Positions 13,335-30,690 of a stretch of DNA of 64,000 bases are shown here, piece after piece. Made by a program: the position numbers and the translations under genes. The notes below the pieces were generated by a model. It had not been told where the DNA came from. It saw nothing but the letters and a program-made list of their open reading frames with translations, and did not search any database. The DNA comes from Phycicoccus duodecadis. Lineage in GTDB: Bacteria; Actinomycetota; Actinomycetes; Actinomycetales; Dermatophilaceae. Every line of letters begins with the position of its first letter. Position 1 is the stretch's first letter. Location: positions 3,100,001-3,164,000 of the forward strand of contig NZ_PJNE01000001.1 in NCBI RefSeq assembly GCF_002846495.1, written 5' to 3'.

Positions 13335-13916
13335 ATGAGCACCCCTGACGGACCCGCGGGCCACGGCCGGACGGTGGAGTACCCGCCGGTCGTCGAGACC
13401 CTGGGCAGGACGTACGAGACCGACTGGTCCACCTCGGCGCACCAGGAGGTCAAGCGCGTGCAGAACTCGCTGACCTCCAGCCAGAGCTTCGGGCAGATCC
13501 CGGCCGCCCAGGACTTCGCGGCCGTGTACCGCGCCGCCCAGCACGTCTACGAGGCCACGCTCCAGGGCATCCGCACCGACCTCGAGGCCGCCGGCGCCGC
13601 CCTGGCCCGGGCCGGCGCCGAGATCCGCCAGCGCGACGAGGCCAGCGCCGACACCTTCCAGCAGCTCAACGCCCAGTGGGGTGACGGCAGCGGCTTCACC
13701 AGCGCCCAGCAGCACGACCAGGCCGAGCAGCAGGAGCCCGTGCGGGAGGGCGCCCAGGCGATGCAACGTCTCGAGGGCCAGCCCGGCGCCGGGCCCACCG
13801 ACACGACCGTCACCACGGAGGCCGGGCCCACCGGCCCCGGCCCGGCCACGTCCGCCGGGGGCACGCCGCCGGCGGACGACACGATGACGACCGGGGGGTC
13901 CCCGGCGAATGGCTGA
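13335..13916 (+). CDS. Type VII secretion substrate-like helical protein
   Basis: A 193-residue protein. Residues about 25-125 are predicted to be helical (EVKRVQNSLTSS…, YRAAQHVYEATLQGIRTDLEAAGAAL, RDEASADTFQQL), resembling the helical bundle of ESX-associated secreted proteins. The last 70 residues are rich in Gly, Pro and Thr, so unstructured. There is no signal peptide or membrane segment. It lies between the WXG100 pair and a mycosin, and its stop overlaps the mycosin start by eight bases. It is probably a secreted substrate or chaperone-bound effector of this machine; no named family is claimed. Confidence 0.75.
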   Translation: MSTPDGPAGHGRTVEYPPVVETLGRTYETDWSTSAHQEVKRVQNSLTSSQSFGQIPAAQDFAAVYRAAQHVYEATLQGIRTDLEAAGAALARAGAEIRQRDEASADTFQQLNAQWGDGSGFTSAQQHDQAEQQEPVREGAQAMQRLEGQPGAGPTDTTVTTEAGPTGPGPATSAGGTPPADDTMTTGGSPANG

Positions 13917-15459
13917 CGGCGCCCGGAAGCGGCTCCTCGGGGCGGTCGCGGCGTGTGTCGCCGCCGGCCTCCTCGGGGCGCCCTCCGGTGCGCACGCCGC
14001 GCCGCACGCCGCAGCGGCTCTCGGGGCCCTGCCCGCGGCCGTCGCCCCGCTGCCCGGCGAGTGGTGGTGGGGCGCCATGGGCGTCGACGAGCTGCACGCC
14101 GCCGGCACCGGTCGGGGGATGACGGTGGCCGTGATCGACGGCCCCATCGAGCCCGACGTGCCCGACCTGGCCGGCAAGGTCGCCTCGTCCAGCACGCTGT
14201 GCCTCGACCCGACCCGGAGCACCGACGTCCTGCGGTCCTCGACCGGGCGGGGCCCGGAGGCCCAGCACGCCACCAGCATGGCCGCGCTGATCGCCGGCAC
14301 CGGCAAGGGCACCGGCCCCGGCGGTCGCGGCATCCGCGGTATCGCCCCCGACGCCACCATCCGGCACTACGCCGTCCTCTACGACGACCCGGAGGACGCC
14401 GACCGCAAGGCGTGCGGCGTCGACTTCCGCACCACCGACGACGTCGAGAAGGCCCTGGGCCTCTCGATCGCCCGGGCCGCCCGCGACGGCGCCGACGTCA
14501 TCAACCTCAGCCTCGTCACCGGCTTCGGCCAGGAGATCGAGGACGGCCTGCTCACGGCGTACCGCGAGGGCGCGATCGTCGTGGCGGGCACGGGCAACGG
14601 CAAGGGCCGGGTGCAGTGGCCGGGGCTCGGCAACGGCGTCGTGCTGGTCAACCCGGTCGGCCAGGACGCCCGCACCACCGACTTCTCGGTCACCGGCGAC
14701 CGCGCCATCGGGCTGGCCGCCCCGGGCGAGGACGTGATGGCGGGCGCCGACGACGGCTCGGGGTGGCGGAGCACCACCGTCGGGTCCGGCGCCTCCGTCG
14801 CCACCGCCCTCGTCAGCGGCGGCATCGCGGCGCTCTGGTCGGCGCACCCGCAGGCCTCGGCCGGCCAGGTCCTGCAGGCCGTCCGGCAGAACGTGGGGCT
14901 GCGGGCCAAGGACGACGGGTCGGGCTACCGCACCTGGTTCCGCCGGGTCGGCACGGGCCTGCCGCAGGTCACGGCCAAGAACCCCGCCTACGGCTGGGGC
15001 GTCTTCGACCCGGCCGACGCCGTGGAGGTCGACCCCACGACGCTGCCCACCGCCAACCCGTTCGTGCGCACCGACGACGTGGTCAACGGCCCGTCGCCCG
15101 AGGCCATCGCCGCGGCCACCGCTGCCGCCTCCTCGACCGCCGCGAGCGCCACCCCCTCCGCCTCCGCCTCGCCTTCGCCCTCGCCGTCGCCGTCCACGGC
15201 GGCGGCCCCGGCGGTCGACGACACCCCCGGCGGCTCGGGCCCCGGAGCGCTGGTCCTGCTCCTGGTGGGGGCGGTCGTCCTGGTCGCCGGCGCGGCCGCG
15301 TTCGTGCTCCGCGGGCGGGCCCGAGCGGTCGCGACGACCACGGCCGACCCCGCCACCGTGGGGCCCCCCACCGACCCCGGGGACCTCGCGGTCCCCACCG
15401 ACGACACCGCAGCACACCAGAGCCGGGGCGCCACGAGCGCCGATGGGAGGAAGTACTGA
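13909..15459 (+). CDS. Second type VII secretion-associated S8 serine protease (mycosin-like)
   Basis: A 516-residue subtilisin-family protease with a signal peptide (LLGAVAACVAAGLLGAPSGAHA), catalytic Asp in AVIDGPIE, His in QHATSMAALIAG, an Asn in AGTGNGKG that could serve as oxyanion-hole residue, and Ser in GSGASVATALVSGG. A Ser/Pro/Ala-rich linker (about residues 395-440) leads to a membrane anchor (GALVLLLVGAVVLVAGAAAFVL) and a cytoplasmic tail of about 50 residues. It differs from the first mycosin by the longer linker and tail and by HAT and GAS in place of the usual HGT and GTS. It overlaps the genes on both sides, so belongs to the WXG100 operon. Confidence 0.88.
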   Translation: MADGARKRLLGAVAACVAAGLLGAPSGAHAAPHAAAALGALPAAVAPLPGEWWWGAMGVDELHAAGTGRGMTVAVIDGPIEPDVPDLAGKVASSSTLCLDPTRSTDVLRSSTGRGPEAQHATSMAALIAGTGKGTGPGGRGIRGIAPDATIRHYAVLYDDPEDADRKACGVDFRTTDDVEKALGLSIARAARDGADVINLSLVTGFGQEIEDGLLTAYREGAIVVAGTGNGKGRVQWPGLGNGVVLVNPVGQDARTTDFSVTGDRAIGLAAPGEDVMAGADDGSGWRSTTVGSGASVATALVSGGIAALWSAHPQASAGQVLQAVRQNVGLRAKDDGSGYRTWFRRVGTGLPQVTAKNPAYGWGVFDPADAVEVDPTTLPTANPFVRTDDVVNGPSPEAIAAATAAASSTAASATPSASASPSPSPSPSTAAAPAVDDTPGGSGPGALVLLLVGAVVLVAGAAAFVLRGRARAVATTTADPATVGPPTDPGDLAVPTDDTAAHQSRGATSADGRKY

Positions 15460-16820
15460 TGGTCATTCCCGACGAGGGGGGCTACACCCCAGCACTGCCC
15501 GACGACGCCGGTCCGCACGAGCGGATGCTGCACAGGATCTACGGGTTCCAGACCTACATCGTCAGCGACACCGCCACCGACTGGGGCAAGACCGCCGACG
15601 GGGTCAGGGGTCTGGCCGCCGAGGTCCGCGGCGTCATCACCAAGCTCCAGGGCGCCGACCCGCCGTGGGAGGGCCCCGCCGCCACCGCCGCGTACGGCAC
15701 CCTCCACGAGCTGGCCAAGGCCCTCGACAGCCGGGCCGGCGAGATCGAGGACATCAAGAAGGGCCTCCAGGACGCCGCCACCGCGGGCAGCACCGCGATG
15801 GCCGCGTACTCGGCCCAGGTGCGCTCCATCTCGACCGACGTCGACCGCACGCAGTACCAGCCGTCCGGCGGCGGCACGTTCAACGTCACCGGCTACGAGG
15901 CCGCGGTCGACGCGAAGAAGGCCGAGCGCGAGGCGGCCGCCCAGCAGGTGCTGGCGACGTTCAACGCCGACATGGGCTCGGCCGCCAAGCAGATGCCGGT
16001 CGAGGCGCCGCAGGACAGCGTGATGATCGACCCGACCTCCGGCGGCGGGGGCGGCACTCCTCCCGGCGGTGGGGGCGGGAGCACGCCGAGCGGGGGGTCG
16101 TACACGCCGCCGAACGGCACCCTGGTCGGCGTCCACCACCCCGAGACCACGCCGCCACCCCAGCAGCAGCCGCCGGTCGTCATCCACCACCCACCCGTGG
16201 TCGACCCGCCCGTCTCCATCGGCTGCCCGGGACCGACCGACCCCGACCCGCGCGGTCCCGAGCTCGACGGCCCCACCACCGGCAGCACCGTCGCGGGCGG
16301 CCCCGGCAGCACCGGCTGGGCCGGTACGGCGTCGGGCGGCGGTTCCGCGTCCGGTCCCGGCCTCGGGGGCGCGGGCGCGATGACCGCCGGCGGCCTGCTC
16401 ACCGGCGGCGTCGGGATGCTGGGGCGCGCCCTGGGCCGAGGCGGCCTGGGGGCCGCCGGTCGCTCGGGCCCGGTCGTGGCCGGTAGCACCGGCGCCGCCG
16501 GGCGCGGCGCGACGGGCAGCGGGGCCCGGGGTGCGGTGGGCACGGGCGGCCGCGGGGCCGTGGGGGCCGGCGGCCAGGGCGCCGGGCGTGGCGGTCGCAG
16601 CGGCGGCATCCGCGGAGCGAAGACCGGTGGGCGCTACGGCGTCCCCAAGCTCGGCGAGGCCGGGCGCGGCGGCCGCGGCGTCGGAGCCGGCGGGGGAGCC
16701 GGCGGTCGCGGCAAGGGCAAGGACGAGCAGCGCCCCGAGGACGTCGACTCCCTCACCCACGAGGACGAGGAGACCTGGTTCGAGGGCGGGGACGACGCGA
16801 CGCCGCCCGTGTGGCGATGA
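15459..16820 (+). CDS. PPE-like, glycine-rich type VII secretion protein
   Basis: A 453-residue protein starting one base inside the mycosin stop (TGATG), with GGGAGGAAG before the ATG. The first 190 residues are helical (MLHRIYGFQTYIVSDTATDW, GLAAEVRGVITKLQGADPPWEG), with WEG reminiscent of a WXG/PPE-type bundle. Then come a Pro/Gly-rich linker and a long Gly/Ala/Arg-rich region, and an acidic tail ending ETWFEGGDDATPPVWR. No signal peptide. It is probably a secreted or surface substrate of the type VII machine. The function is unknown and the PPE-like label rests on architecture only. Confidence 0.75.
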   Translation: MVIPDEGGYTPALPDDAGPHERMLHRIYGFQTYIVSDTATDWGKTADGVRGLAAEVRGVITKLQGADPPWEGPAATAAYGTLHELAKALDSRAGEIEDIKKGLQDAATAGSTAMAAYSAQVRSISTDVDRTQYQPSGGGTFNVTGYEAAVDAKKAEREAAAQQVLATFNADMGSAAKQMPVEAPQDSVMIDPTSGGGGGTPPGGGGGSTPSGGSYTPPNGTLVGVHHPETTPPPQQQPPVVIHHPPVVDPPVSIGCPGPTDPDPRGPELDGPTTGSTVAGGPGSTGWAGTASGGGSASGPGLGGAGAMTAGGLLTGGVGMLGRALGRGGLGAAGRSGPVVAGSTGAAGRGATGSGARGAVGTGGRGAVGAGGQGAGRGGRSGGIRGAKTGGRYGVPKLGEAGRGGRGVGAGGGAGGRGKGKDEQRPEDVDSLTHEDEETWFEGGDDATPPVWR

Positions 16821-16841
16821 GCCTCACCCGTCGTCGGCCGC

Positions 16842-16867
16842 GGCGTCTCACCCCGAGGTGAGGCGCC
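16842..16867. terminator. Hairpin between convergent secretion genes
   Basis: GGCGTCTCACC (16842-16852) pairs with GGTGAGGCGCC (16857-16867) around CCGA with one T-G mismatch. It lies just after the PPE-like gene and overlaps the last codons of the convergent EccD-like gene. Confidence 0.5.
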
Positions 16868-18440
16868 GCAGTGCTTCGACCGTCCCGGCGGCCAGCACCG
16901 CGCACGGCAGCACCAGGACCACGGCCAGGGCCTCGAGCCGGTCGGCCAGCCGCGACATCCGGGGCGAGGCCCAGCCGCCGGCCAGCGCGACGGCGGCCAC
17001 CACGGCGACCACCCCCAGCACGAGGGCGGCCGCCACGACCGGCCACAACCAGCCGCCGTCCCAGCCCACCACCGCCACGCTGGCGCTCGCCGTGAGCGAG
17101 GCCGCGGCGGCCAGCATCGCGAAGCGCGCGAGCCGGTCGCGCACGTGGCGGGCCTGGTAGCCGAAGGCCAGCGCCCCGACGACCGGTGCCAGCCAGCGCG
17201 CCCAGGGCGCGATGGTCGACAGGGGCGGCGTGAGCGCCAGGACCCAGCCGGCCCCGGCGGCGAGCAGCGCCAGGTAGGCCGTCCCCACCGACACGACCGA
17301 GCGGGCCGCCGCGACCCGGCCGCGCACGTCGAGCCCGGTGACCCGGCGCCGCCGACCGGCGTGCCGCTCGCGCACCGACCAGACGGTGGTCGAGAGCCGG
17401 TCGGTGTCGACGAGCTGGGTGGGGTCGACGTCGAGGCTGGCGCTGGGCAGGGCGCGGATGACGACCGGGGCCAGGCCCAGCAGGACGGCGGCGGCGGCCG
17501 CGAGCGGGCGCCCCCACATCACCGAGGCGGCCACGACGACGGCCACGCCGCCGAGGCAGGCCATGGCGGTGCGCTCGGCGCGGTCGGCGGTGGAGCCGTC
17601 GGAGGAGGCCAGGGCCATCACCACGGCGCCGAGAGCCGCGGCCAGGGCGATGGTGACGCCGACGCGGGCGGGGGAGTCGTGCAGCGGCGCGACCAGGCCG
17701 GCCGAGACCGCCAGGGCGGGGACCCCGACGAGCCGCACCACCCCGGTGCCCGGGCGGCGCGCCGTGGTGAGGAGGGCGGCGACCACGGCGGCGACGAGGA
17801 GCACCGCGGCGGCCCCCCAGCGCACGGGCACCGAGTCGAGCAGGGCCCCGCTCGCGCCGGCCGGCTCGGCCGCGGCCAGGACCCCCGCGACCAGGCTGAC
17901 CAGCGACGTGCCGGCCACCACCGCGGGCACGGTGTCGCCGCCGAGGGCGCGGGCCGGGCGCGAGCGCCCGGGGCGCGGGCCGCGGCCCCGCCGTCGTCCG
18001 GCGTGCAGCGCGGCCCGGCTGACCGTGGCGTCGTCGTCGGTGTCGTCACGGCGCCGGGTGGACTCGTCGACGAGCGACACCCCGGGCTCGTCGTCGGCGG
18101 GTCGCGGGGAGCGCGAGCCGCCGGCCCACGCCGGGGCCGACGTCCGCGCCCCGGGGGCCGAGGAGGAGCGGTCGAGGCTCACGACGCCGCGGTGCAGCCG
18201 GTGGGTGGTGGTGCGCACGACGGTGAGCACGGCGCCGGTGGGCAGGTCCTCGCCGATGCGGTCCTGGGGGCCGTAGACGTGGCCCGCGGCCGTCGCCACC
18301 GAGCTGGGCGTGGCGCTGGAGGAGATGCCGAGGACGGCCAGGACCTCGGTGACGCGGGTCCCCACGGGCACGACGAGGTCGTAGCGACGCTCGTCGGCGA
18401 CGAGGGTCAGCTGTTGGGTCGGTCCGTCCATCCCGTCCAT
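16848..18440 (-). CDS. Second EccD-like type VII secretion membrane protein
   Basis: A 530-residue protein with an N-terminal ubiquitin-like domain (QLTLVADERRYDLVVPVGTRV to GAVLTVVRTTTHRL, about residues 8-85), an Arg/Asp-rich linker of about 85 residues, and some eleven or twelve membrane segments. The plan matches EccD, but it is longer and clearly different from the first EccD in this locus. It might be a second ring subunit or replace the missing EccE. Start at 18440 is chosen because GGGGAGG lies six bases upstream; a second ATG nine bases later is less well placed. It is divergent from eccC. Confidence 0.85.
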   Translation of the reverse strand: MDGMDGPTQQLTLVADERRYDLVVPVGTRVTEVLAVLGISSSATPSSVATAAGHVYGPQDRIGEDLPTGAVLTVVRTTTHRLHRGVVSLDRSSSAPGARTSAPAWAGGSRSPRPADDEPGVSLVDESTRRRDDTDDDATVSRAALHAGRRRGRGPRPGRSRPARALGGDTVPAVVAGTSLVSLVAGVLAAAEPAGASGALLDSVPVRWGAAAVLLVAAVVAALLTTARRPGTGVVRLVGVPALAVSAGLVAPLHDSPARVGVTIALAAALGAVVMALASSDGSTADRAERTAMACLGGVAVVVAASVMWGRPLAAAAAVLLGLAPVVIRALPSASLDVDPTQLVDTDRLSTTVWSVRERHAGRRRRVTGLDVRGRVAAARSVVSVGTAYLALLAAGAGWVLALTPPLSTIAPWARWLAPVVGALAFGYQARHVRDRLARFAMLAAAASLTASASVAVVGWDGGWLWPVVAAALVLGVVAVVAAVALAGGWASPRMSRLADRLEALAVVLVLPCAVLAAGTVEALRRLTSG

Positions 18441-18561
18441 CCCGTCCTCCCCCCTCCTGCGTACCGGCCGGTGTCGGGCATCGCCCGCGAGGAACAGTAT
18501 CCACGGGTAGCGTGGGGCCCACCTGGAGGTCGACACACAGGACAATGGGGAGGATCCGACG

Positions 18562-21500
18562 ATGACGGTGGCTGCGCGCGCCGGCGGCCGCGAGAAGGCG
18601 CCGGAGGTGCCGACCGGGCGGCTGGTCCTCCAGCCCCCGCCCGAGATCACCCCGTCCGAGGGGGCCAGCGGCATGCTGATGCAGGCCGTCCCGATGCTGG
18701 GCTCGCTGGGCTCGATCGGCTTCGTAGCCCTCTCGCAGAGCGGGCCGCGCGCCTACTTCACGGCCGGGATGTTCCTCGTCGCCTCCGTCGGCTTCGTCCT
18801 CGCCAGCGGTCTGCGCCAGCGCCAGCAGCACGCGGCCGGGGTGCTGGCCGCCCGCCGCGAGTACCTCGCCTACCTGGCCGAGGTCCGCGAGACCATCCGG
18901 GACGCGGCCTCCCGCCAGCGCGAGGCCGCCCTCTGGGACTTCCCCGACCCCGCGGCCCTGCCCGTCATCGCGGCCGAGGGCAGCCGGGTGTGGGAGCGCC
19001 AGCCCTCCGACGCCGACTTCCTCCAGGTCCGGATGGGCACCACCGCCCAGCCGCTCTGCCTCGAGCTCGAGCCGCCCGAGACCGCGCCCCTGGCCCAGCT
19101 CGACCCGGTGGCCGCCTCGGGGCTGCACCGCCTGCTGTCGACCCACAGCGTCCAGCCCGGCCTGCCGGCCTCGGCCGCCCTGCGCGCCTGGCCGCGCATC
19201 GAGGTCACCGGCGACGCCGACCCCGCGCGTTCGCTGGCCCGCTCGGTCGTGCTCTCGGCCGCGATGCAGCACGCCCCCGAGGACCTCGTCATCGCCGCGC
19301 TCGTCTCGCGCGAGGCCCGCGCCGAGTGGGAGTGGCTCAAGTGGCTCCCGCACGCCCTCAGCCCCCGCGAGCGCGACGCCGTCGGGCCGGTGCGCCTGGT
19401 CGGCGAGTCGGTGCACGACCTGCTGCCGCTGCTGCCCCACGAGATCGTCGAACGCCCGCGCTTCGGCCCGTCCGACCGCCCGGCCCTGCCGCACGTCCTG
19501 CTGGTCGTCGACGGCGGCCACGTGCCGCCCGGCAACCCGGTCGTCACCGACGACGGCGTCCTCGGCGTCACCGTCATCGACCTGCCCGAGCAGTGGGGCG
19601 AGCTCGCAACGCCCACCACGCTGCGCCTGGCCGTGGGGGCGGTGACCGCGTCGGGGCCGCGGGCCGGCACCGCACCGCTCGAGATCATCAGCCTCGCGCG
19701 GGGGGTGGCGCACGGCGTGGCCGACCAGGTGTCGACCATCCGCGCCGAGGCGGCCGCCCGCCGCCTGGCCCCGCGCTACACCGCCGACGAGCCGGAGGCC
19801 CGCGACGCGCTGTCGGCCGCCACCGAGCTCGTCGACCTGCTCGGCACCGGCGACGTGCGCGACTTCGACGTCGAGACCGCGTGGCGCCCGCGCCTCCAGC
19901 GTGACCGGCTCCGGGTGCCCATCGGGGTCGACGAGTCGGGCCAGCCGGTCGCCCTCGACATCAAGGAGTCGGCCCAGCAGGGGATGGGCCCGCACGGGCT
20001 GGTCATCGGCGCCACGGGCTCGGGCAAGTCGGAGCTGCTGCGCACCCTGGTGCTGGCGCTCGCGATGACGCACTCGTCCGAGGCGCTGAACTTCGTGCTG
20101 GTCGACTTCAAGGGCGGGGCCACCTTCGCGGGGATGGCCGACCTGCCGCACGTCTCGGCCGTCATCACCAACCTCGGCCAGGAGCTCACGCTCGTCGAGC
20201 GCATGCAGGACGCCCTCCAGGGCGAGATGACCCGCCGCCAGGAGCTCCTGCGCGCGGCCGGCAACTTCGCCAACGTCACCGACTACGAGCGGGCGCGGGC
20301 GGCCGGCGCCGACCTCGAGCCGCTGCCGGCGCTGCTCATCGTGGCCGACGAGTTCTCCGAGCTGCTCGCCGCCAAGCCCGAGTTCGCCGACCTGTTCGTG
20401 GCCATCGGGCGCCTGGGCCGCTCGCTCTCGATGCACCTGCTGCTGTCGTCGCAGCGCCTGGAGGAGGGGCGACTGCGCGGGCTCGAGTCGCACCTGTCCT
20501 ACCGGATCGGCCTGCGGACCTTCTCGGCCGGCGAGTCGCGCACCGTCATCGGCGTCCCCGACGCCTACGAGCTGCCGCCGGTGCCGGGCCTGGGCTACCT
20601 CAAGCCCGACCAGACCACGCTCACCAAGTTCAAGGCCGCCTACGTGTCCGGGCCCCCGAAGGGCCGGCGCCGCCGCGGCGGCGTGGTCGAGGGCGGGGCC
20701 ACCGGCTCGGCCGAGATCCTGCCCTTCACGCTCGCCCCGGTCACGGCCGGGCGGCGCACCGCCGCCCCCGAGCCCACCCCCCAGGAGCGGCCCGAGAGGG
20801 GCGACGAGCGCGCGGTCTTCGACATCGCCGTCGAGCGGATGCGGGGCAAGGGGCGCCCCGCGCACCAGGTGTGGCTGCCGCCGCTCGACGTCCCCAACTC
20901 GATGGACCAGCTACTGCGCGACCTCGCGCCCGACCCCGAGCTGGGGCTGGTCAGCAAGGCCTGGCGGGCCCGCGGCGACTACGTGCTGCCGGTCGGCATC
21001 GTCGACCGCCCGCTCGAGCAGCGCCGCGAGCTGTTCGTGCTCTCGCTCGGCGGCGCGGCCGGCCACGTCGCCGTCGTCGGCGGCCCGCGCGCCGGGCGCA
21101 GCACCTTCGCGCGGACCGTCGTCGCGGCCATCGCGCTGACGACGACCCCGAAGGAGAGCCAGGTCTACGTGCTCGACTTCGGCGGCGGGACCTTCACGCC
21201 GCTGGCGAAGCTCGCCCACGTGGCCGGGGTGGCCAACCGCAGCGAGCCCGAGGTCGTGCGCCGTCTGGTCGCCGAGATCCGCGGCATCGTCGACGCCCGT
21301 GAGAGCTACTTCCGCGCCCAGGGCGTCGACTCCATCGAGACCTACCGGCGCCGCCGGGCCCAGGGCCTGGTCGACGACGGCTACGGCGACGTGTTCCTCG
21401 TGGTCGACGGCTGGCCCACGCTGCGTGCCGAGTTCGACGAGCTCGAGCAGCAGATCATGGAGCTCGCCGGCCGCGGCCTGACCTTCGGCGTGCACGTGGT

Positions 21501-22548
21501 CGTCACGACCTCGCGCTGGATGGACTTCCGCAACCAGATCCGCGACGTGCTCGGCACCCGCGTCGAGCTGCGGCTCGGCGACCCCACCGACTCCGAGGTC
21601 GACCGCAAGGTCGCGGCCAACGTCCCGAAGGGCCGGCCCGGGCGGGGCCTGACCATGGCCAGGCACCACTTCCTGGGTGCCGTCCCGCGCATCGACGACA
21701 GTGGCGCGGTCGACGACCTCGGCGACGGGGTCGAGGACCTGGTCGCCCGGGTCAACGCCGCCTGGACCGGCCCGCGAGGCCCGAAGCTGCGGCTGCTGCC
21801 CGAGGAGATCACCCTCGACGCCGTCCGCGAGCTGGCCGGCCCCGACGAGCGCCGCCTCCTGCTCGGCATCGACGAGGCGGCCCTGGCGCCGCTGGCCATC
21901 GACCTCGCCGAGGACCCGCACCTGTACCTGCTCGGCGACGGCGACAGCGGCAAGACCGGGTTCCTGCGCACGGTGGCCCACGAGATCGCCCGCCTGCACA
22001 CGCCGCAGGAGGCCAAGCTCTTCGTCGTCGACTACCGCCGCGGCCTGCTCGGCGAGCTGCCCGAGGGCCACGTCGGCGAGTACCTCACGACCCAGGAGCA
22101 GACGGTCGCGGCGGTCGAGGGCATCACCGAGTTCCTGCGGACCCGACTGCCCGGGCCCGACGTCACGCCCGAGCAGCTGCGCGCCCGCTCGTGGTGGTCC
22201 GGCGCCGAGGTGTTCTTCCTGGTCGACGACTACGACCTGGTGGTCACCTCGTCCGGGTCGCCGCTGCGCCCGCTGGTGCCGCTGCTCGCCCAGGCCGGCG
22301 ACGTGGGCCTGCACCTGGTCATCACACGGCGCGCCGGTGGCGCCTCCCGCGGGATGTTCGAGCCGGTGATGCAGTCGATCCGCGACCTCGGGGCGCCGGG
22401 CATCCTGCTGTCGGGCAACCCCGACGAGGGGATGCTCATCGGGCGGGTCAAGCCCTCGCAGCAGCCGCCCGGCCGGGCCCGGATCATCTCGCGCGACCTC
22501 GGCGACCAGGTGTTCCAGACGGCCTGGCAGCCGCCGCGCCTCGGCTGA
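18562..22548 (+). CDS. eccC: Type VII secretion ATPase EccC (FtsK/SpoIIIE family)
   Basis: A 1328-residue motor protein. Two N-terminal membrane segments (about residues 40-90) are followed by three FtsK/SpoIIIE ATPase domains with P-loops GATGSGKS (483-490), GGPRAGRST (840-848) and GDGDSGKT (1125-1132). EccC powers export and recognises the C-terminus of WXG100 substrates with its last ATPase. Walker B acids are visible in LIVADEFSE and FLVVDGW. The second P-loop has Arg where Lys is expected, so that domain may bind but not hydrolyse ATP. It is a single chain, unlike the split EccCa/EccCb of ESX-1. GGGGAGG precedes the ATG. Confidence 0.96.
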   Translation: MTVAARAGGREKAPEVPTGRLVLQPPPEITPSEGASGMLMQAVPMLGSLGSIGFVALSQSGPRAYFTAGMFLVASVGFVLASGLRQRQQHAAGVLAARREYLAYLAEVRETIRDAASRQREAALWDFPDPAALPVIAAEGSRVWERQPSDADFLQVRMGTTAQPLCLELEPPETAPLAQLDPVAASGLHRLLSTHSVQPGLPASAALRAWPRIEVTGDADPARSLARSVVLSAAMQHAPEDLVIAALVSREARAEWEWLKWLPHALSPRERDAVGPVRLVGESVHDLLPLLPHEIVERPRFGPSDRPALPHVLLVVDGGHVPPGNPVVTDDGVLGVTVIDLPEQWGELATPTTLRLAVGAVTASGPRAGTAPLEIISLARGVAHGVADQVSTIRAEAAARRLAPRYTADEPEARDALSAATELVDLLGTGDVRDFDVETAWRPRLQRDRLRVPIGVDESGQPVALDIKESAQQGMGPHGLVIGATGSGKSELLRTLVLALAMTHSSEALNFVLVDFKGGATFAGMADLPHVSAVITNLGQELTLVERMQDALQGEMTRRQELLRAAGNFANVTDYERARAAGADLEPLPALLIVADEFSELLAAKPEFADLFVAIGRLGRSLSMHLLLSSQRLEEGRLRGLESHLSYRIGLRTFSAGESRTVIGVPDAYELPPVPGLGYLKPDQTTLTKFKAAYVSGPPKGRRRRGGVVEGGATGSAEILPFTLAPVTAGRRTAAPEPTPQERPERGDERAVFDIAVERMRGKGRPAHQVWLPPLDVPNSMDQLLRDLAPDPELGLVSKAWRARGDYVLPVGIVDRPLEQRRELFVLSLGGAAGHVAVVGGPRAGRSTFARTVVAAIALTTTPKESQVYVLDFGGGTFTPLAKLAHVAGVANRSEPEVVRRLVAEIRGIVDARESYFRAQGVDSIETYRRRRAQGLVDDGYGDVFLVVDGWPTLRAEFDELEQQIMELAGRGLTFGVHVVVTTSRWMDFRNQIRDVLGTRVELRLGDPTDSEVDRKVAANVPKGRPGRGLTMARHHFLGAVPRIDDSGAVDDLGDGVEDLVARVNAAWTGPRGPKLRLLPEEITLDAVRELAGPDERRLLLGIDEAALAPLAIDLAEDPHLYLLGDGDSGKTGFLRTVAHEIARLHTPQEAKLFVVDYRRGLLGELPEGHVGEYLTTQEQTVAAVEGITEFLRTRLPGPDVTPEQLRARSWWSGAEVFFLVDDYDLVVTSSGSPLRPLVPLLAQAGDVGLHLVITRRAGGASRGMFEPVMQSIRDLGAPGILLSGNPDEGMLIGRVKPSQQPPGRARIISRDLGDQVFQTAWQPPRLG

Positions 22549-24095: not shown

Positions 24096-24635
24096 TCAGA
24101 CGCTGTGGCCCAGGTGCGCCAGCGCCTGGCGCAGCAGCACTCCGTGGCCGCGGTCCATCTCGGCCTGGATGCCGGGGTCGAGCGCCTGCTGCGGGGTGAG
24201 CCAGGTGAGGTCGAGCGCGTCGTTCTGGGGGGCGCAGTCGCCGGCCACCGGTACGACGAACGCCAGCGACACCGCGTGCTGGCGGGGGTCGTGGAACGGG
24301 GTGACGCCCGGGGTCGGGAAGTACTCGGCCACGGTGAACGGCTGCGGGGCCACCGGCACGCGGGGCAGCGCCACCGGCCCGAGGTCCTTCTCGATGTGCC
24401 GCAGCAGCGCGTCGCGCACCCGCTCGTGGTGCAGCACCCGGCCCGACACCAGCTCGCGGCAGACCCGCCCGTCGGCGTCCAGGCGCAGCAGCACCCCGAC
24501 CGCGGTGACCTCCCCACGGTCGTCGACCCGCACCGGCACGGCGTCGACGTAGAGGATCGGCAGCTTCTCGCGCGCCGCGTCGAGCTCCTCCCGGCTCAGC
24601 CAGGCAGGGTCGCGGTCGAGCTCGAGGGGGTTCAT
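24096..24635 (-). CDS. DUF4916 family (Nudix-like) protein
   Basis: A 179-residue cytoplasmic protein recognised as DUF4916, a family related to Nudix hydrolases. The opening MNPLELDRDPAWLSREELDAAR and the internal HAVSLAFVVPVAGD are typical. The full Nudix box with its Glu-rich REExxEE core is not obvious, so hydrolase activity is uncertain. Its ATG overlaps the stop of the ECF S-component gene (ATGA), making it the last gene of the riboswitch-controlled vitamin B12 operon. It may process a cofactor-related nucleotide, but that is context only. Confidence 0.78.
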   Translation of the reverse strand: MNPLELDRDPAWLSREELDAAREKLPILYVDAVPVRVDDRGEVTAVGVLLRLDADGRVCRELVSGRVLHHERVRDALLRHIEKDLGPVALPRVPVAPQPFTVAEYFPTPGVTPFHDPRQHAVSLAFVVPVAGDCAPQNDALDLTWLTPQQALDPGIQAEMDRGHGVLLRQALAHLGHSV

Positions 24636-25525
24636 GGAGGCGATTGTGCCAAGTGCCCCGGGGCCGCCTCCGGGGGACGCGCCGCGGCCCGGGCATCCGG
24701 GGCGTCGTCGAAGCCCACCGGCGCGTCGAAGGCCGCGCGCCGGGCCGCCCGTCGCAGGGCCCCGAGCACCGGGCGGGCCGTGAGCGAGATGAGCACGACG
24801 TTGGTCACCGCCCGCCCGAGGTCCCAGCCGAGGCTGGTCGCCAGGCTGAACACGACGAACCGGTGCAGGTTCTCGAGCAGCGGCGCACCGGCCACGAACG
24901 ACAGACCGGTCGCCGCCCCGGTGGAGAACGGCCAGAACGACAGGTTCATCACCATCCCGTAGGCGAGCCCGGCCACCGCCCCGTAGCCGGCGAGCAGCGC
25001 GACCTCGCGCCGCCCTCGGGCCCGTGGCAGCAGCCCGGCGCCCCAGCCGACCCAGGCCGCCCCGAGCATCTGGAACGGCAGCCACGGCCCGACCCCGCCG
25101 GTGATGAGGGCCGACGCGAACAGAGTGACCGCGCCCTGGACGAACCCGAAGCCGGCCCCGAACACCCGCCCGCCCAGGACCAGCAGGAAGAACACCGTCT
25201 CGAGCCCGGCCGTACCGGCCCCGAGCGGGCGCAGCGCCGCACCGACCGCGGACAGCACGCCGAGCATGGCGACCGCCTTGACGTCCATCCCGCCCTCGGC
25301 GATCTCGGCCAGGACGACGGCGAGCAGCAGCGGCAGCACGAGCGCGAAGACCAGTGGCGCGTCGGCGGAGTGCGACAGCCCGGAGCCGGGGCTCACCAGC
25401 AGCGGCCATCCGAAGGCCACGACGCCGGCCAGGCTGACGAGCGCGACGGCCGCCGCCGAGCGCGGGCGCAGCGCGATGGCGGTGACCCGCTCGCCGGCCG
25501 TGGCCGCCGCCGCCCGGGGGCTCAC
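24632..25525 (-). CDS. ECF transporter S component (predicted cobalamin-specific)
   Basis: A 297-residue integral membrane protein with about eight hydrophobic segments, ending in a charged tail. It is encoded between the ECF ATPase and DUF4916 genes and overlaps both by four bases (GTGA and ATGA). S components bind the vitamin and are driven by the EcfT/EcfA module. The region LETVFFLLVLGGRVFGAGFG and SALITGGVGPWLPFQMLGAAW resembles S components of actinobacteria. Cobalamin specificity is inferred from the cobalamin riboswitch at the head of the operon and from the transcobalamin-like gene, not from residues. Confidence 0.82.
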   Translation of the reverse strand: MSPRAAAATAGERVTAIALRPRSAAAVALVSLAGVVAFGWPLLVSPGSGLSHSADAPLVFALVLPLLLAVVLAEIAEGGMDVKAVAMLGVLSAVGAALRPLGAGTAGLETVFFLLVLGGRVFGAGFGFVQGAVTLFASALITGGVGPWLPFQMLGAAWVGWGAGLLPRARGRREVALLAGYGAVAGLAYGMVMNLSFWPFSTGAATGLSFVAGAPLLENLHRFVVFSLATSLGWDLGRAVTNVVLISLTARPVLGALRRAARRAAFDAPVGFDDAPDARAAARPPEAAPGHLAQSPP

Positions 25526-27168
25526 GACCGCACCGGCGCGGGTGCGGCGTCGCGGACGTCGGCCACGGTGAGCCAGGGGCCGCCGAGCACCTTGGACACC
25601 TGCGGGGCGAACGCGGGGGAGGAGACCACGACGTCGGCCGTCGGCCCGTCGGCCACGACTTCGCCGGTGGCCATGACCACGACCCGGTCGGCGCACTCGG
25701 CGACGAACTCGACGTCGTGGGTCGAGACCACCACCGAACGACCCCGGGCGGCGAGGTCGCGCAGCGTGGTGCTGAGGACGGCCTTGGCGGTCGGGTCGAG
25801 GCCGCGGGTGGGCTCGTCGAGCAGCAGCACCGGCGGGTCGGCGGTGAGCTGGACCGCGAGGACCAGGGCGAGGCGCTGGCCCTCGGACAGGTCGCGGGGA
25901 TGACGGTCGGCCGGGATGCCGGGGGCCAGGCGTTCGAGCAGGCCGGCGCAGGTGCCCGCCGGGGCGCCGCTCTCGCGGTCGGACTGGGCGCACTCGCCGC
26001 CCACCGTGTCGAGGTAGAGCAGGTCGCCGGCGGTCTGCGGCACCAGCCCGACCCGGGCGCGGCGCGCGGCGGGGGAGAGCGACGCCGGGTCGACCGCCGT
26101 GCCGCCGGGCCCGATGACCTCGACCCGCCCGGCCGCGAGCCGCCCGCTGCCCTGGAGGGCCCACAGCAGCGAGGACTTGCCCGAGCCGTTGCGGCCCATC
26201 AGGGCGGTGACCTCGCCGGCGCGCAGCTCGAGGTCGACGCCCGCCACGGCGATGACGTCACCGGGATGGCGCACCACGGCGCCCGCGGCGCGCAGCACCG
26301 CCGGCCCGAGGGCCGGAGCATCCGGGGGTGCTCCGGCCGGCGAGCCGTGCAGGCGCTCGCGCAGGTCGCCCGCGGCGCGCCGGGCGTCGCGCACCGACAG
26401 CGGCAGTGGCGACCACCCGGCCCACCGGCCGAGCTCGACCACGGGCGGCGCGATGTCGCTGGTGAGCATGACCTCGGCCGGCAGCCCGTCGTGCACGGTG
26501 CCGCCCGGTGCGACGTGCACGACGCGGTCGGCGTGGTGCAGCACCCGCTCGACGCGGTGCTCGGCGACGACCACGGTGACCCCGAGGTCGTGCACCAGCC
26601 GGGTGATGGTGGCCAGCACCTCCTCGGCGCCGGTGGGGTCCAGGGCCGAGGTGGGCTCGTCGAGCAGGATGACGCTGGGGTGGGCGGTGAGCACCGACCC
26701 GATGGCCACGCGCTGCTGCTGCCCGCCCGAGAGCTCGCGCAGCGGCACCCCGCGCAGCTCGGGGATGCCGAGCAGGTCGAGGGTCTCCTCGACCCGCTTG
26801 CGCATGGTGGCGGTCGGCAGGCCGAGCTGCTCCATCCCGTAGGCGAGCTCCTCCTCGACGGTGTCGGTGACGAAGCCCGCCAGCGGGTCCTGGCCGACGA
26901 CGCCGACGACGTCCGCGAGGTCGCGGGGCCGGTGCGTGCGGGTGTCGCGGCCGGCCACCACGGCCCGGCCGCGCAGGGTGCCGCCGGTGAAGTGCGGGAC
27001 CCGCCCGCACATCACGCCGAGCAGGGTCGACTTGCCCGAGCCGGTGCGCCCGACGACCAGGGCCAGCTCGCCCTCCTCGACCACGAGGTCGACGTCGCGC
27101 AGCAAGGGGACCGAGCCGTCGGTGGGCACGACGCCGACGCCGGTGAGGACGATCGCGGGGTCAGCCAC
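25522..27168 (-). CDS. ECF transporter double ATPase (fused EcfA-EcfA)
   Basis: A 548-residue protein with two complete ABC ATPase domains in one chain. The first has Walker A GRTGSGKST (about residues 38-46), signature ELSGGQQQR and Walker B VILLDEPTSALDP. The second has GRNGSGKSS, a less usual signature DLSEGQRLA, and VLLLDEPTRGLDP. In many ECF transporters the two ATPases are separate proteins; here they are fused. It powers vitamin import with EcfT and the S component. GTG at 27168 overlaps the ecfT stop by eight bases. Confidence 0.93.
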   Translation of the reverse strand: MADPAIVLTGVGVVPTDGSVPLLRDVDLVVEEGELALVVGRTGSGKSTLLGVMCGRVPHFTGGTLRGRAVVAGRDTRTHRPRDLADVVGVVGQDPLAGFVTDTVEEELAYGMEQLGLPTATMRKRVEETLDLLGIPELRGVPLRELSGGQQQRVAIGSVLTAHPSVILLDEPTSALDPTGAEEVLATITRLVHDLGVTVVVAEHRVERVLHHADRVVHVAPGGTVHDGLPAEVMLTSDIAPPVVELGRWAGWSPLPLSVRDARRAAGDLRERLHGSPAGAPPDAPALGPAVLRAAGAVVRHPGDVIAVAGVDLELRAGEVTALMGRNGSGKSSLLWALQGSGRLAAGRVEVIGPGGTAVDPASLSPAARRARVGLVPQTAGDLLYLDTVGGECAQSDRESGAPAGTCAGLLERLAPGIPADRHPRDLSEGQRLALVLAVQLTADPPVLLLDEPTRGLDPTAKAVLSTTLRDLAARGRSVVVSTHDVEFVAECADRVVVMATGEVVADGPTADVVVSSPAFAPQVSKVLGGPWLTVADVRDAAPAPVRS

Positions 27169-28285
27169 GGACCAAGACCTCCCGGGCGCCGCGCACCGGG
27201 CGGCGGGACGCGGGGCGGGGCGGCTCCGGGGTGAGGAGCCCCGGCAGCGCCGCCACCAGCAGCCCGCCCACGGCGAGCAGCGGCAGCGCCGGCACGCCCA
27301 GCGGTGAGAGGGGCATCGAGAGGGCATCCGGGGTGGTGCGCGACACGACCACGACGGCGGCCGCCGCCACCGCCCCGCATCCGAGCGTCAGCCACTCGGC
27401 GCCGCGCCACGGGTCGGGGCGGTACGTGGTGCGCTCGACGTGCCGGCCGCCGAGCCACAGACCGGCCGCCGACAGCAGCAGGCCGAGCCCCAGGGTGGGG
27501 GTTCCCATCACGGCCGGGATCGTGGCGTCGAGCACGCCGTAGAGCCCGACCGCGCACGCCAGCAGGCCGCCGAGGGTGAGAATGCCGGTGCCGACCCGCT
27601 GGCCGGCCGGGGCGGTGGGGGTGCGGCCGTAGCCGCGCGAGTCCATGGCGGCGGCCAGCAGCAGCGAGCGCTCGAGAGTGTCCTCGAGCACCGGCAGGGC
27701 CACCGAGGGCAGGGCCCGCAGCCCGCGCGCGGTGTCGCCGCGCAGCTGCCGGGCCCGGTGCACGCGCTGCACTGACTCGGCCAGCTCGGGCGCGACCGAG
27801 ACCGACACCACGACGGCCGCGCCGACCTCGTGCAGCGCGCTCGGGAGGGTGCGGAGCAGCCGCTTGGGGTTGGCCAGGGCGTTGGCGGCGCCGATGCAGG
27901 CGATGATGACGGCCAGCCGCAGGCCGAGGGTGGCCGCGCCGAGCAGCCCCTCGAGGTAGACGTCACCGCCGAGCTGGATGCCCGCCGCCCACGACGGCAG
28001 GGTCGCCTCCGGCAGCGGGAACAGCCGCACGGTGCCGAGCTTGAGCCCGACCAGCACGTGCAGCACGAGGCGGAGCACGATGATCGCGGCCCCCAGGTAG
28101 AGGTAGAACCGGAAGGCCCGCGCCCAGGGCGACGTGCCTCGCCGAGCGGCCACGACGAACCCCGCCACCGACAGCCCGAGGAGCAGCAGCAGGGGGTTGG
28201 TCGTGCTGCTGACCGCCACGGCGAGCCCGACCGCCCAGCCCCACCACGCCGCCGGATGGACGGTGCGGGGCACGAGGCGGCTCAC
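27161..28285 (-). CDS. ECF transporter transmembrane component EcfT
   Basis: A 374-residue CbiQ/EcfT family protein. Five or six membrane segments flank a long cytoplasmic region that carries the coupling motifs RARQLRG and AAMDSRGYGR (the Ala-Arg-Gly type motifs that dock onto the ATPases). Two or three additional C-terminal membrane segments make it longer than the usual 260 residues. It starts with GTG 12 bases after the stop of the surface-protein gene and overlaps the ATPase gene, so it belongs to the riboswitch-controlled operon. Confidence 0.9.
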   Translation of the reverse strand: MSRLVPRTVHPAAWWGWAVGLAVAVSSTTNPLLLLLGLSVAGFVVAARRGTSPWARAFRFYLYLGAAIIVLRLVLHVLVGLKLGTVRLFPLPEATLPSWAAGIQLGGDVYLEGLLGAATLGLRLAVIIACIGAANALANPKRLLRTLPSALHEVGAAVVVSVSVAPELAESVQRVHRARQLRGDTARGLRALPSVALPVLEDTLERSLLLAAAMDSRGYGRTPTAPAGQRVGTGILTLGGLLACAVGLYGVLDATIPAVMGTPTLGLGLLLSAAGLWLGGRHVERTTYRPDPWRGAEWLTLGCGAVAAAAVVVVSRTTPDALSMPLSPLGVPALPLLAVGGLLVAALPGLLTPEPPRPASRRPVRGAREVLVRG

Positions 28286-28297
28286 CGAGGCATCATC

Positions 28298-30466
28298 TCA
28301 GCCGCGCCGTCGCCAGACGGTCCAGCCGGCGCCCCCCGCGACCAGCGCGATGAGGGCACCGCCCGCCAGCAGCGGGACGCCGCCCGGCTCGGCGTCGCCG
28401 CTCGTGGGGGCCGACGCCACGGGCGTGGGGCCGTCGGTCGGTGTCGCGTCGTCGGTCGGCGACGGGCTCCCTGAGGCGGGCCCGGAGGCGGAGGCCGACG
28501 GGCTGGGGGTGGCCGTGGCCGACCCCGACGGGGCGGTGCTGGGGCGTGCTTCGGGGGTGGCGGGGGTGGTGCCCGCCGCCGTCGAGCCGTTGGTCGCCCG
28601 GGGTGCGGTGGGCGTCCGGCGGGGGCTGGACGCGGGCTTGGGCGCGGCGGTGGTGGTGCGCGGCGTCGACGTGGTCCTGGGCGTCGACGTGGTGGCGCTG
28701 GGGGCGGGCGGGGCGATCCTCGGCTGCTGGCCCGACCCGAAGCGCCAGCCCTGGACAGTGCCCGGCTGGGGGTCGTAGCTTCCCGCCCCGGTGCTGCTGT
28801 AGCTCCACGAGCCTCCGCGGGCCGCGTGGTAGTAGGCCCAGTAGGCGGTGGCCGGGGGAGTGCTGTGGCACGGGTCGCTGCCGGGGAAGTCGTTGATCCG
28901 GCACACGAACCCCGGCTGGGTCTGCACCTGGGTGACGCCGAACCCGGCCAGGCTCAGGGCCTGCAACCCGCTCGACGGGTCGCCGGGCGCGCAGGCCGTG
29001 ACCACCGACGAACCGGTGTCGACGACGACCGTCACCCCGCTGGTGCCCGAGCACGCGGCGGCCGCCGCCGGGACCGCCGCGGCGACGAGCCCGGCCGTGG
29101 CCAGGCCCGCCGCCGCGGCGGCGCAGGCCAGGCTGGGCGCCTGCGCCTCGGCCCCGGCGGCCGTCACCGCCCCGAGGGGGACACCCGCGAGGGCGAGGAG
29201 GCCCTGCGACGTCGAGCGCCGGTCCTGGTCGGTGGTCACCGCCCCGGCACCCTTCGTGACCTGGGTCTGGTAGGCGGCGCTGTCGTACGCGATGCCGCCG
29301 CGGAGCACCGCGGGCAGGGCGCAGCCGTACTGGAGGGTGGTGAGGTAGCGGACGGCCGCGCGCGCCTGGGCGGTGCGGCCACCGGCGAGGAAGGCCTGGC
29401 CGGCGAGGCCGGTGCTGTTGGCGTTCAGCGTGGCCGTGAGGCCGGCGCCGGGGACACCACCGGAGGCGTCCTGGAGACCGGCGAGGTAGTCGAGCCCGGC
29501 CGACGCCGCGGCGGCCTGACCCCCCACCACCAGGAGCGCCTGCACGGCCATCGCGGTGGCGTCTGGGTCGGCGGCGGTGTCGCTCGTGCAGCCCGCGTCG
29601 GTCTCGTACAGCTGGAAGCCGCCACCCGGGCACTGCTGCGCCACGAGGTAGGCGCGCGCCTGGGGGCTGACGCCGACGCCGGCGCGGGTGAGGCCGATGA
29701 GCGCGAACGACTGCCCGAAGGTGTTGGAGTTGTCGCCGTACTGTGACCGGTCGGAGAAGCGCCCGGTGGGCTGCTCGAGGCCCTGCAGGGTCGCCACGAG
29801 GTCGGTGCCCCCGAAGGCGGTGGGGTCGACCCCCTGCGCGACGGCCACGTTGAGCAGCTTGGCCAACGGGCCGGCCGGCACCTCGGTGGCGTCGCCGAAG
29901 CCGAGGTAGTCGACGAGGTGGTCGGCGAGGGTCCGGGTGGCCACGGCCGCGGCGTCCTGCCCGGTGCCGGCCGCGTCGAGGGCGAGCACGGCGTCGGCGA
30001 CGAGCCCGTACTGCGGGTACTCGACGCCGCCGAAGACGATCGGGAGGGTGTACTTCGTGGTGACCAGCTCGCGCTCGAGGTAGTCGGCACCGACCAGCAC
30101 CGGGTCGGTCGAGGTCGCCGGGCCCGCGGCCGCGGCGATGCCGTAGCGGGCGGAGGTGCCGCCGGGGACCAGGCCCGCAGCGGCGTCGGCGCTCGAGCTC
30201 GACGAGGTGGGCGTGGGTGTCGCGGTGGCGCTCGGGGTCGCCGTCGCGCTGGGCGTCGCTGTCGCGCTCGGCGACGGCGAGGCCGTGGCGCTGGGTCCGG
30301 GAGAGGTCTCGGTCGGGCTGACCGAGGGCGACGCGGAGGTGGTGGGGGTGCCCGAGGCGTCCGGCGCGACGTCGGCGAACGCCGCCGACGAGGCGCCGAC
30401 GAGGGCGGCGGACACGAGCAGAGCACCGAGCGCGCGAGCGCCGGGGCGGAGCGTGGTGGGGGACAT
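28298..30466 (-). CDS. Secreted transcobalamin/intrinsic-factor-like surface protein (alpha/alpha barrel + DUF4430-type domain)
   Basis: A 722-residue exported protein, first gene under the cobalamin riboswitch. Signal peptide residues 1-31 (cleavage likely AFA|DV), Ser/Thr/Pro linker to about 95, then an alpha/alpha barrel of prenyltransferase-like helical repeats (DATAMAVQALL, NSTGLAGQAFL, STSQGLLAL) to about 500. A C-terminal beta domain follows, opening VTVVVDTG and closing YWAYYHAARGG…GAGSYDPQPG…GWRFG, matching the DUF4430 pattern. A second Pro/Thr linker leads to a membrane anchor (LLAGGALIALVAGGAGWTVW) and RRRG; no LPxTG. Human intrinsic factor and transcobalamin have the same barrel plus beta-domain plan. 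Predicted role: catching B12 outside the cell for the ECF importer. ATG at 30466 is preceded by AGGAAGG. Confidence 0.85.
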   Translation of the reverse strand: MSPTTLRPGARALGALLVSAALVGASSAAFADVAPDASGTPTTSASPSVSPTETSPGPSATASPSPSATATPSATATPSATATPTPTSSSSSADAAAGLVPGGTSARYGIAAAAGPATSTDPVLVGADYLERELVTTKYTLPIVFGGVEYPQYGLVADAVLALDAAGTGQDAAAVATRTLADHLVDYLGFGDATEVPAGPLAKLLNVAVAQGVDPTAFGGTDLVATLQGLEQPTGRFSDRSQYGDNSNTFGQSFALIGLTRAGVGVSPQARAYLVAQQCPGGGFQLYETDAGCTSDTAADPDATAMAVQALLVVGGQAAAASAGLDYLAGLQDASGGVPGAGLTATLNANSTGLAGQAFLAGGRTAQARAAVRYLTTLQYGCALPAVLRGGIAYDSAAYQTQVTKGAGAVTTDQDRRSTSQGLLALAGVPLGAVTAAGAEAQAPSLACAAAAAGLATAGLVAAAVPAAAAACSGTSGVTVVVDTGSSVVTACAPGDPSSGLQALSLAGFGVTQVQTQPGFVCRINDFPGSDPCHSTPPATAYWAYYHAARGGSWSYSSTGAGSYDPQPGTVQGWRFGSGQQPRIAPPAPSATTSTPRTTSTPRTTTAAPKPASSPRRTPTAPRATNGSTAAGTTPATPEARPSTAPSGSATATPSPSASASGPASGSPSPTDDATPTDGPTPVASAPTSGDAEPGGVPLLAGGALIALVAGGAGWTVWRRRG

Positions 30467-30492
30467 GGGGCCTTCCTGCAGCGGTTCGTGAC

Positions 30493-30543
30493 GAATGCCC
30501 GAACCACCGGGAGACCCGGCATCTCGGGCTCCGTCCCGCATTC
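30493..30543 (-). promoter_or_regulatory. Riboswitch expression-platform hairpin
   Basis: On the reverse strand GAATGC (complement of 30538-30543) pairs with GCATTC (complement of 30493-30498), with CCCGA/TCGGG and CCGGG/CCCGG stems inside. It lies between the cobalamin aptamer and the ATG at 30466. It has no T tract, so translational control or a non-canonical terminator is likely. Confidence 0.5.
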
Positions 30544-30554
30544 CTCGACGGGTG

Positions 30555-30690
30555 TGTGGAGCCGCTCGCGCCTGGCAGGCATTCCGACTCGCCACCCCGA
30601 GGGGCGGCCTACGGCTGCGGGACAGTGCCGGAGTTGGACCGGCTTCCCCCACCAAGTGCGTGTGGTGCCGCCCGTGAGGGCGACGCCGGT
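30555..30690 (-). ncRNA. Cobalamin riboswitch (AdoCbl class)
   Basis: The reverse strand carries the conserved cobalamin-aptamer core. GGGGAAGCCGGT is followed by CTCCGGCACTGTCCCGCAG around 30610-30632, matching the family's GGGAA…CCGG…ACTGTCCCGCA core. The B12-box region AGTCGGAATGCCTGCCAGGC is complementary to 30570-30589. It lies upstream of the transcobalamin-like gene and the ECF genes, so high cobalamin should shut off the operon. A TAGCAT hexamer (complement of 30692-30697) could be its -10 box. The exact ends are approximate. Confidence 0.92.

Follow-up and report, generated by a model that had tools for sequence, protein, structure and literature searches.

How does an actinobacterium come to encode, in front of a set of transporter genes, an exported protein with the layout of animal cobalamin (B12) carriers, in which an alpha/alpha toroid is followed by a beta domain in one chain? 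The question is raised by an operon in a 64,000-nucleotide stretch of the Phycicoccus duodecadis genome (assembly GCF_002846495.1, contig NZ_PJNE01000001.1, forward-strand positions 3,100,001 to 3,164,000; hereafter the window). The operon is headed by a cobalamin riboswitch and codes for a 722-residue surface protein, an energy-coupling factor (ECF) transporter, and a DUF4916 protein. It is probably a B12 scavenging operon, in which a tethered clamp of toroid and beta domain feeds a dedicated ECF importer, the two halves of the clamp having been fused by a deletion. A bolder proposal is that this bacterium independently rebuilt the animal transcobalamin layout in one step: a deletion of 302 base pairs (bp) would have turned a B12 clamp of two proteins, a toroid and a DUF4430-like lid, into a single functional chain that is tethered to the membrane and feeds the importer. 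This is put forward only tentatively. If true, the relatives with split genes would show the clamp in its older, two-part state, out of which B12 carriers of one chain can evolve.

The evidence for the fusion comes from comparison with relatives. In a DNA alignment with Nostocoides sp. Soil756, the closest relative in the set, to which it is about 92% and 96% identical in the two domains, the window lacks 302 bp. The ends of this stretch in Soil756 are GGCCTGC-GCCGCCGCG on the left and GGA-GCCGCCGCG on the right, and the window retains a single copy of the 9-bp repeat. The stretch contains the toroid linker, a LAQTG motif, the toroid membrane segment with its stop codon, and the start of the beta signal peptide. 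With its loss, the LAQTG anchor of the toroid protein and the start of the beta gene are gone, and the two genes are joined in frame. Relatives were searched for in 39 genomes, of which 20 match (9 of 12 within the genus), and in a sample of the order, which gave matches in 65 of 297 genomes, no more than five candidates being scored in each. The eight other genomes of the genus with a match all have toroid and beta as adjacent genes in different frames, with a TGATG overlap at the toroid stop. Among the 26 genomes of the order sample that match both parts, the window alone is open through both: adjacent pairs number 23 (in 22 genomes), every one of them in different frames, and two genomes have toroid and beta on different contigs. 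As read from these alignments, the one-chain plan is a lineage-specific deletion fusion of two genes, which the first-pass annotation of this DNA had overlooked.

The 302-bp gap could also be an assembly or sequencing error in a species that has the usual split genes. Such an error fits the occurrence of the fusion in the window alone among the 26 genomes, the collection having one genome per species, and the short GC-rich repeats that bound the gap. However, the host genome (3.5 Mb) is a single contig and 99.77% complete, and a precise loss between 9-bp repeats, after which the two domains are still present and in frame, has the look of a real event. An error is thus regarded as highly improbable.

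Some relatives show other arrangements of these genes. In genome G357 (locus L098:2146-4809), toroid and beta share a frame but are separated by a TAG stop; the genes for EcfT, EcfAA, and the S component lie next to them, and the toroid gene has no LAxTG tail at its end. A second toroid gene lies past the S component in G020 (L042:3732-12116), which has a further toroid/beta/ECF set elsewhere (L050). A group II intron RNA match of 57.3 bits (L041:2010-2109) lies upstream of a toroid gene in L041, a locus of 10.7 kb in which neither ECF nor beta genes were matched.

The fused protein consists of an N-terminal signal-like segment, a Ser/Thr/Pro linker, the toroid, a leftover hydrophobic segment, the beta domain, a Pro/Ser/Thr linker, and lastly a hydrophobic C-terminal segment that ends in RRRG. 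The earlier description of a secreted, membrane-anchored protein agrees with this layout, which begins with an export-type signal and closes with a membrane segment. The leftover segment at the junction is mostly the signal-peptide core of the former beta protein, and could serve as a linker, be cleaved, or stop transfer. In the last two cases, what the fusion yields would be a damaged or processed product: the signal core would be cut by signal peptidase or would stop transfer, the domains would be separated into two chains or onto two sides of the membrane, the toroid, deprived of LAQTG, would be lost or impaired, and the ECF importer would work alone. In accordance with this, the internal segment equals the export signal and the anchor in hydrophobicity (Kyte-Doolittle means over 19 residues of 1.94 at the junction, 1.88 at the N-terminus, and 1.76 at the C-terminus) and is followed by an Ala-rich stretch; moreover, the LAQTG tail present in 7 of the 8 split toroids of the genus is missing from the window protein, in which no L[AP]xTG sorting motif was found. 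Yet both domains are present and in frame, with no stop in frame, and under the topology rule that links a positively charged tail to orientation, the C-terminal tail fits a beta domain lying outside. A damaged or processed form is considered rather unlikely.

The identity of the two domains was examined with profiles. No Pfam model matches the window protein at E-values up to 1, and a single-sequence search of the PDB gave nothing useful. Built from 17 sequences, the toroid profile finds squalene cyclases (best E = 7.8e-16), and the 34 PDB sequences listed for it include no transcobalamin. Hence, the alpha/alpha toroid class is supported by sequence comparison, and a specific kinship to transcobalamin is not. 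The Prenyltrans family is matched weakly by 9 of the 17 toroid sequences, and the toroid alignment finds no relatives among viral contigs. Neither the window protein nor the toroid or beta profiles gave a sequence match to the transcobalamin/intrinsic factor family in Pfam or the PDB. The first-pass annotation had recognized the plan of animal intrinsic factor and transcobalamin in this protein; the succession of toroid and beta domain in one exported chain stands, but it comes with no sequence match to the animal family.

The beta domain had been described as DUF4430-type. Pfam does not recognize it as such: DUF4430 (PF14478) matches none of the 20 beta sequences, that of the window included, at E-values up to 1, and has no match in the host genome. 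The beta profile has no meaningful match in the PDB. Profile-profile comparison nevertheless points to a kinship. The hhalign comparison of the beta profile with 28 DUF4430 sequences (30 minus L078 and L091, which were flank cut and misread; the full 30 gave E = 0.0016) has a score of 27.9 over 30 columns (E = 4e-4), and one of 27.8 over 67 columns once gap-rich columns are removed, whereas none of 300 column permutations exceeds 18.6 and the reversed set scores 11.4. A forced global alignment gives E = 0.01. With a second set of 21 DUF4430 sequences the beta profile gives E = 2.9e-4 over 69 columns, and the toroid, as a negative control, E = 0.54. When the DUF4430 profile is itself compared with the PDB (E up to 10), five matches are returned: a putative metal-binding protein (0.0097), transcobalamin-1 (0.11), a SUI1-type factor (0.35), transcobalamin-2 (0.51), and a phosphatase (1.2). 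The two transcobalamin matches are not significant singly, and none is strong, but jointly they agree with the link to the SLBB domain in the pertinent sections of a published analysis (PMC1796856). The beta domain is thus probably of a divergent DUF4430/SLBB type, a remote relative by profile comparison, and the earlier label holds in this sense and not as a Pfam assignment. In genome G125, an ECF cluster (L063:2-7137) codes for a SCO2322-like beta protein and a toroid, plus a DUF4430 protein above the Pfam cut-off.

The remaining genes of the operon are listed in the table below. The first-pass annotation was correct in its coordinates and list of parts: a covariance search places the cobalamin riboswitch at the head of the operon, the EcfT, fused EcfA-EcfA, and S component genes come next, and the DUF4916 gene closes it. 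The riboswitch lies 90 bases upstream of the start of the surface protein (30466) and is the only RF00174 match found in the host genome (150 of 232 first-look candidates scored). It is followed, in order, by the fused toroid and beta gene, EcfT, the double EcfA, the S component, and DUF4916. The genes are tightly packed, with a gap of 12 bases between the fused gene and EcfT, an overlap of 8 bases between EcfT and EcfAA, and coupling by GTGA between EcfAA and the S component and by ATGA between the latter and DUF4916. A single operon thus carries EcfT, two ATPase domains, and an S component, i.e., an ECF transporter with its own S component, the latter falling below its Pfam cut-off. RF00174 reaches the gathering score in 12 of the 18 loci of relatives, including all eight of the same genus, and EcfT and the S component occur together with toroid and/or beta in 16 of the 18.

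Features of the operon. Positions are those of the window, and scores are given with the cut-off of the model where there is one.
Feature	Position	Strand	Evidence
Cobalamin riboswitch aptamer (RF00174)	30557-30671	(-)	Covariance score 41.9 bits, gathering 31.5, E = 3.5e-7
Fused exported protein, 722 residues	28298-30466	(-)	Open frame; relatives encode the halves separately
Toroid (alpha/alpha) region	29126-30154	(-)	SCO2321_fam 87 bits (cut-off 300); profile match to squalene cyclases
Fusion junction, one copy of GCCGCCGCG	29114-29122	(-)	DNA alignment to Nostocoides sp. Soil756
Leftover hydrophobic segment, residues 447-465	29072-29128	(-)	Kyte-Doolittle mean 1.94 over 19 residues
Beta domain, probably divergent DUF4430/SLBB type, beta-grasp-like	28691-29071	(-)	hhalign against DUF4430 sets
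EcfT (CbiQ family)	27161-28285	(-)	PF02361 35.6 bits (cut-off 25)
Fused EcfA-EcfA ATPase	25522-27168	(-)	ABC_tran 157 bits, two stretches in one protein
S component, predicted substrate-binding membrane subunit	24632-25525	(-)	PF12822 (ECF_trnsprt) 26.3 bits, below cut-off 30.7
DUF4916/NUDIX protein	24096-24635	(-)	PF16262 283 bits (cut-off 27); NUDIX 22.9 bits

The role in B12 uptake, proposed at first from the riboswitch and the domains, can be set against the B12 metabolism of the host. The B12-binding domain PF02310 has nine matches in the genome, of which eight were classified where possible. Among them are MetH (1659.7 bits), methylmalonyl-CoA mutase (1169.8 bits), lysine 5,6-aminomutase beta, a radical SAM protein, and, in a locus that is cut, an IcmF-type protein. 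A second mutase-like protein does not reach its cut-off, a CarH-like protein misses its own by far, and a further long frame matches only diguanylate cyclase models. CbiC, which is common to both known B12 synthesis routes, has no match in the host genome (as a control, it was found in 7 of 14 named genomes). With MetH and B12-dependent mutases but no match for CbiC, the host uses B12 and seems unable to make it. As the search also found no second cobalamin riboswitch, these genes are best read as serving B12 scavenging, and to this extent the proposed uptake role stands. Alternatively, the operon might import cobalt or another corrinoid, or feed a wider salvage route, rather than take up intact B12. 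Another cargo would suit three facts: genes for cobalt uptake, too, can be under the control of cobalamin riboswitches, sequence comparison gives no characterized relative for the S component, and CbiC is present in some of the relatives with a match. However, a host genome in which CbiC is not matched should have little demand for cobalt for B12 synthesis, and the sole Pfam model that the S component touches, below cut-off, is ECF_trnsprt, whereas CbiM is not matched. A cargo other than intact B12 is thus improbable.

In the working proposed for the scavenging operon, low intracellular cobalamin would permit its expression, following the direction in which cobalamin riboswitches are generally known to act. 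Outside the membrane, the exported and tethered toroid and DUF4430-like beta domain would probably close on cobalamin or a related corrinoid, and the surface protein would then hand it over to the ECF importer made of S component, EcfT, and EcfAA, with the S component as the putative B12 carrier. In the relatives the clamp would be made of two proteins, a toroid, which in the genus mostly has a LAQTG tail resembling a wall-sorting signal, and a beta protein that has a membrane segment at its C-terminus. The deletion between the 9-bp repeats would have turned them into one chain, presumably working uncut, that keeps the export signal of the toroid and the membrane anchor of the beta protein.

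Several results weigh against this proposal. The hydrophobic leftover at the junction, which could halt export or be cut in its course, casts the most doubt on a single chain that works. The ratios of nonsynonymous to synonymous substitution rates (dN/dS) relative to Soil756 are 0.16 (toroid), 0.26 (beta domain), 0.34 and 0.57 (the two parts of the linker), and 0.11-0.20 (transporter); the values of the toroid and the beta domain count in favour of the proposal, but dN/dS mostly reflects the time before the fusion. The AlphaFold model, made with an alignment of three rows, has a mean predicted local distance difference test (pLDDT) score of 30.8 and is unusable. To the failure of the toroid profile to find transcobalamin one must add that the hhalign probability for the match between the beta domain and DUF4430 is only 35-43%, and that the beta profile has no match with a DUF4430 set of two sequences. 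The S component, besides being below its Pfam cut-off, has no sequence match in the PDB; its alignment comprises 21 sequences with a mean column identity of 67%. A tie between the operon and the loss of B12 synthesis was considered and rejected, CbiC being found in 8 of the 20 genomes with a match, three of which (G015, G025, and G028) have short matches that may not be the operon, and in 7 of the 19 without. Within the genus, CbiC is found in 1 of the 9 genomes with a match and in 2 of the 3 without.

The general idea that toroid and SLBB domains scavenge B12 is not new, having been published in 2007; the new point is the fusion that gives the animal layout. According to the sections of Burroughs et al. 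(2007, PMC1796856) on these proteins, bacterial SLBB proteins are often fused to toroids, exported, and generally encoded beside CbiO/CbiQ genes; their hosts usually lack key enzymes of B12 synthesis, the proteins probably scavenge B12, and both orders of toroid and SLBB domain are named in other bacteria. The window operon has the same traits, i.e., exported toroid and SLBB-type domains, a CbiO/CbiQ-like operon, and a proposed role in B12 scavenging, with the SLBB assignment resting on profile comparison. It differs from the clade outlined in those sections, which covers low-GC Gram-positives, planctomycetes, and less often euryarchaea, in that its host is a high-GC actinobacterium, and it adds to that account a cobalamin riboswitch, an S component, DUF4916, and the fusion by deletion. 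Judging by titles and the beginnings of abstracts in the open-licence literature, no experimental follow-up of the 2007 prediction in actinobacteria was recognized, and no paper mentioning DUF4430 deals with a bacterial B12 receptor. Since the same two domains exist both fused, in the window, and split, in Soil756, the operon provides a direct test of that prediction. If fused and split forms both bind B12, this would show a route from a two-protein clamp to a one-chain carrier of animal layout, as well as an ECF importer served by a surface protein although the S component is itself the binding subunit.

Other known systems share parts of this plan. The Streptomyces families SCO2321 and SCO2322 (NF053823 and NF040672) contain matching toroid and beta proteins, and relatives lie beside ECF genes. 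They are two proteins there and one in the window, where the NCBIfam models score below their curated cut-offs (87 bits against 300 for SCO2321_fam on the toroid, and 25 bits against 85 for SCO2322_fam). In the open-licence literature, no paper was found on SCO2322-SCO2325, and SCO2321 appears only in a work on skin delivery of proteins. Animal transcobalamin, haptocorrin, and intrinsic factor, which have the same domain order and possibly a remote kinship in the beta domain via DUF4430, differ in that the window protein is membrane-anchored, is encoded in a transporter operon, has no Pfam match to their family, and owes its one-chain order to a fusion event of its own. An ECF importer for B12 is also known from Lactobacillus delbrueckii, namely ECF-CbrT. 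It differs in using a shared ECF module; the extracts of its description (PMC5997447) mention no surface binding protein, and the S component of the window has no sequence match in the PDB. Two Streptomyces plasmids (NZ_CP016083.1 and NZ_CP108509.1; L065:6842-9577 and L067:3879-6803) likewise encode toroid and beta as a single fused protein next to the same ECF genes, but there the order is beta-toroid-toroid, with a LASTG tail and a separate second beta protein.

Some minor observations concern the rest of the operon and its surroundings. Within the operon, constraint is strongest on DUF4916 (99.4% identity to Soil756 and dN/dS of 0.02), which accompanies it in 9 of the 18 loci of relatives, of which at least L050 ends shortly past its S component. 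The leader RNA has a folding z-score of -2.1. Elsewhere in the window, the region 13909-22548 is possibly a type VII secretion region, with a subtilase (83 bits), an EccD-like protein (46 bits), and a frame of 1328 residues labelled FtsK/EccC-like by reading alone.

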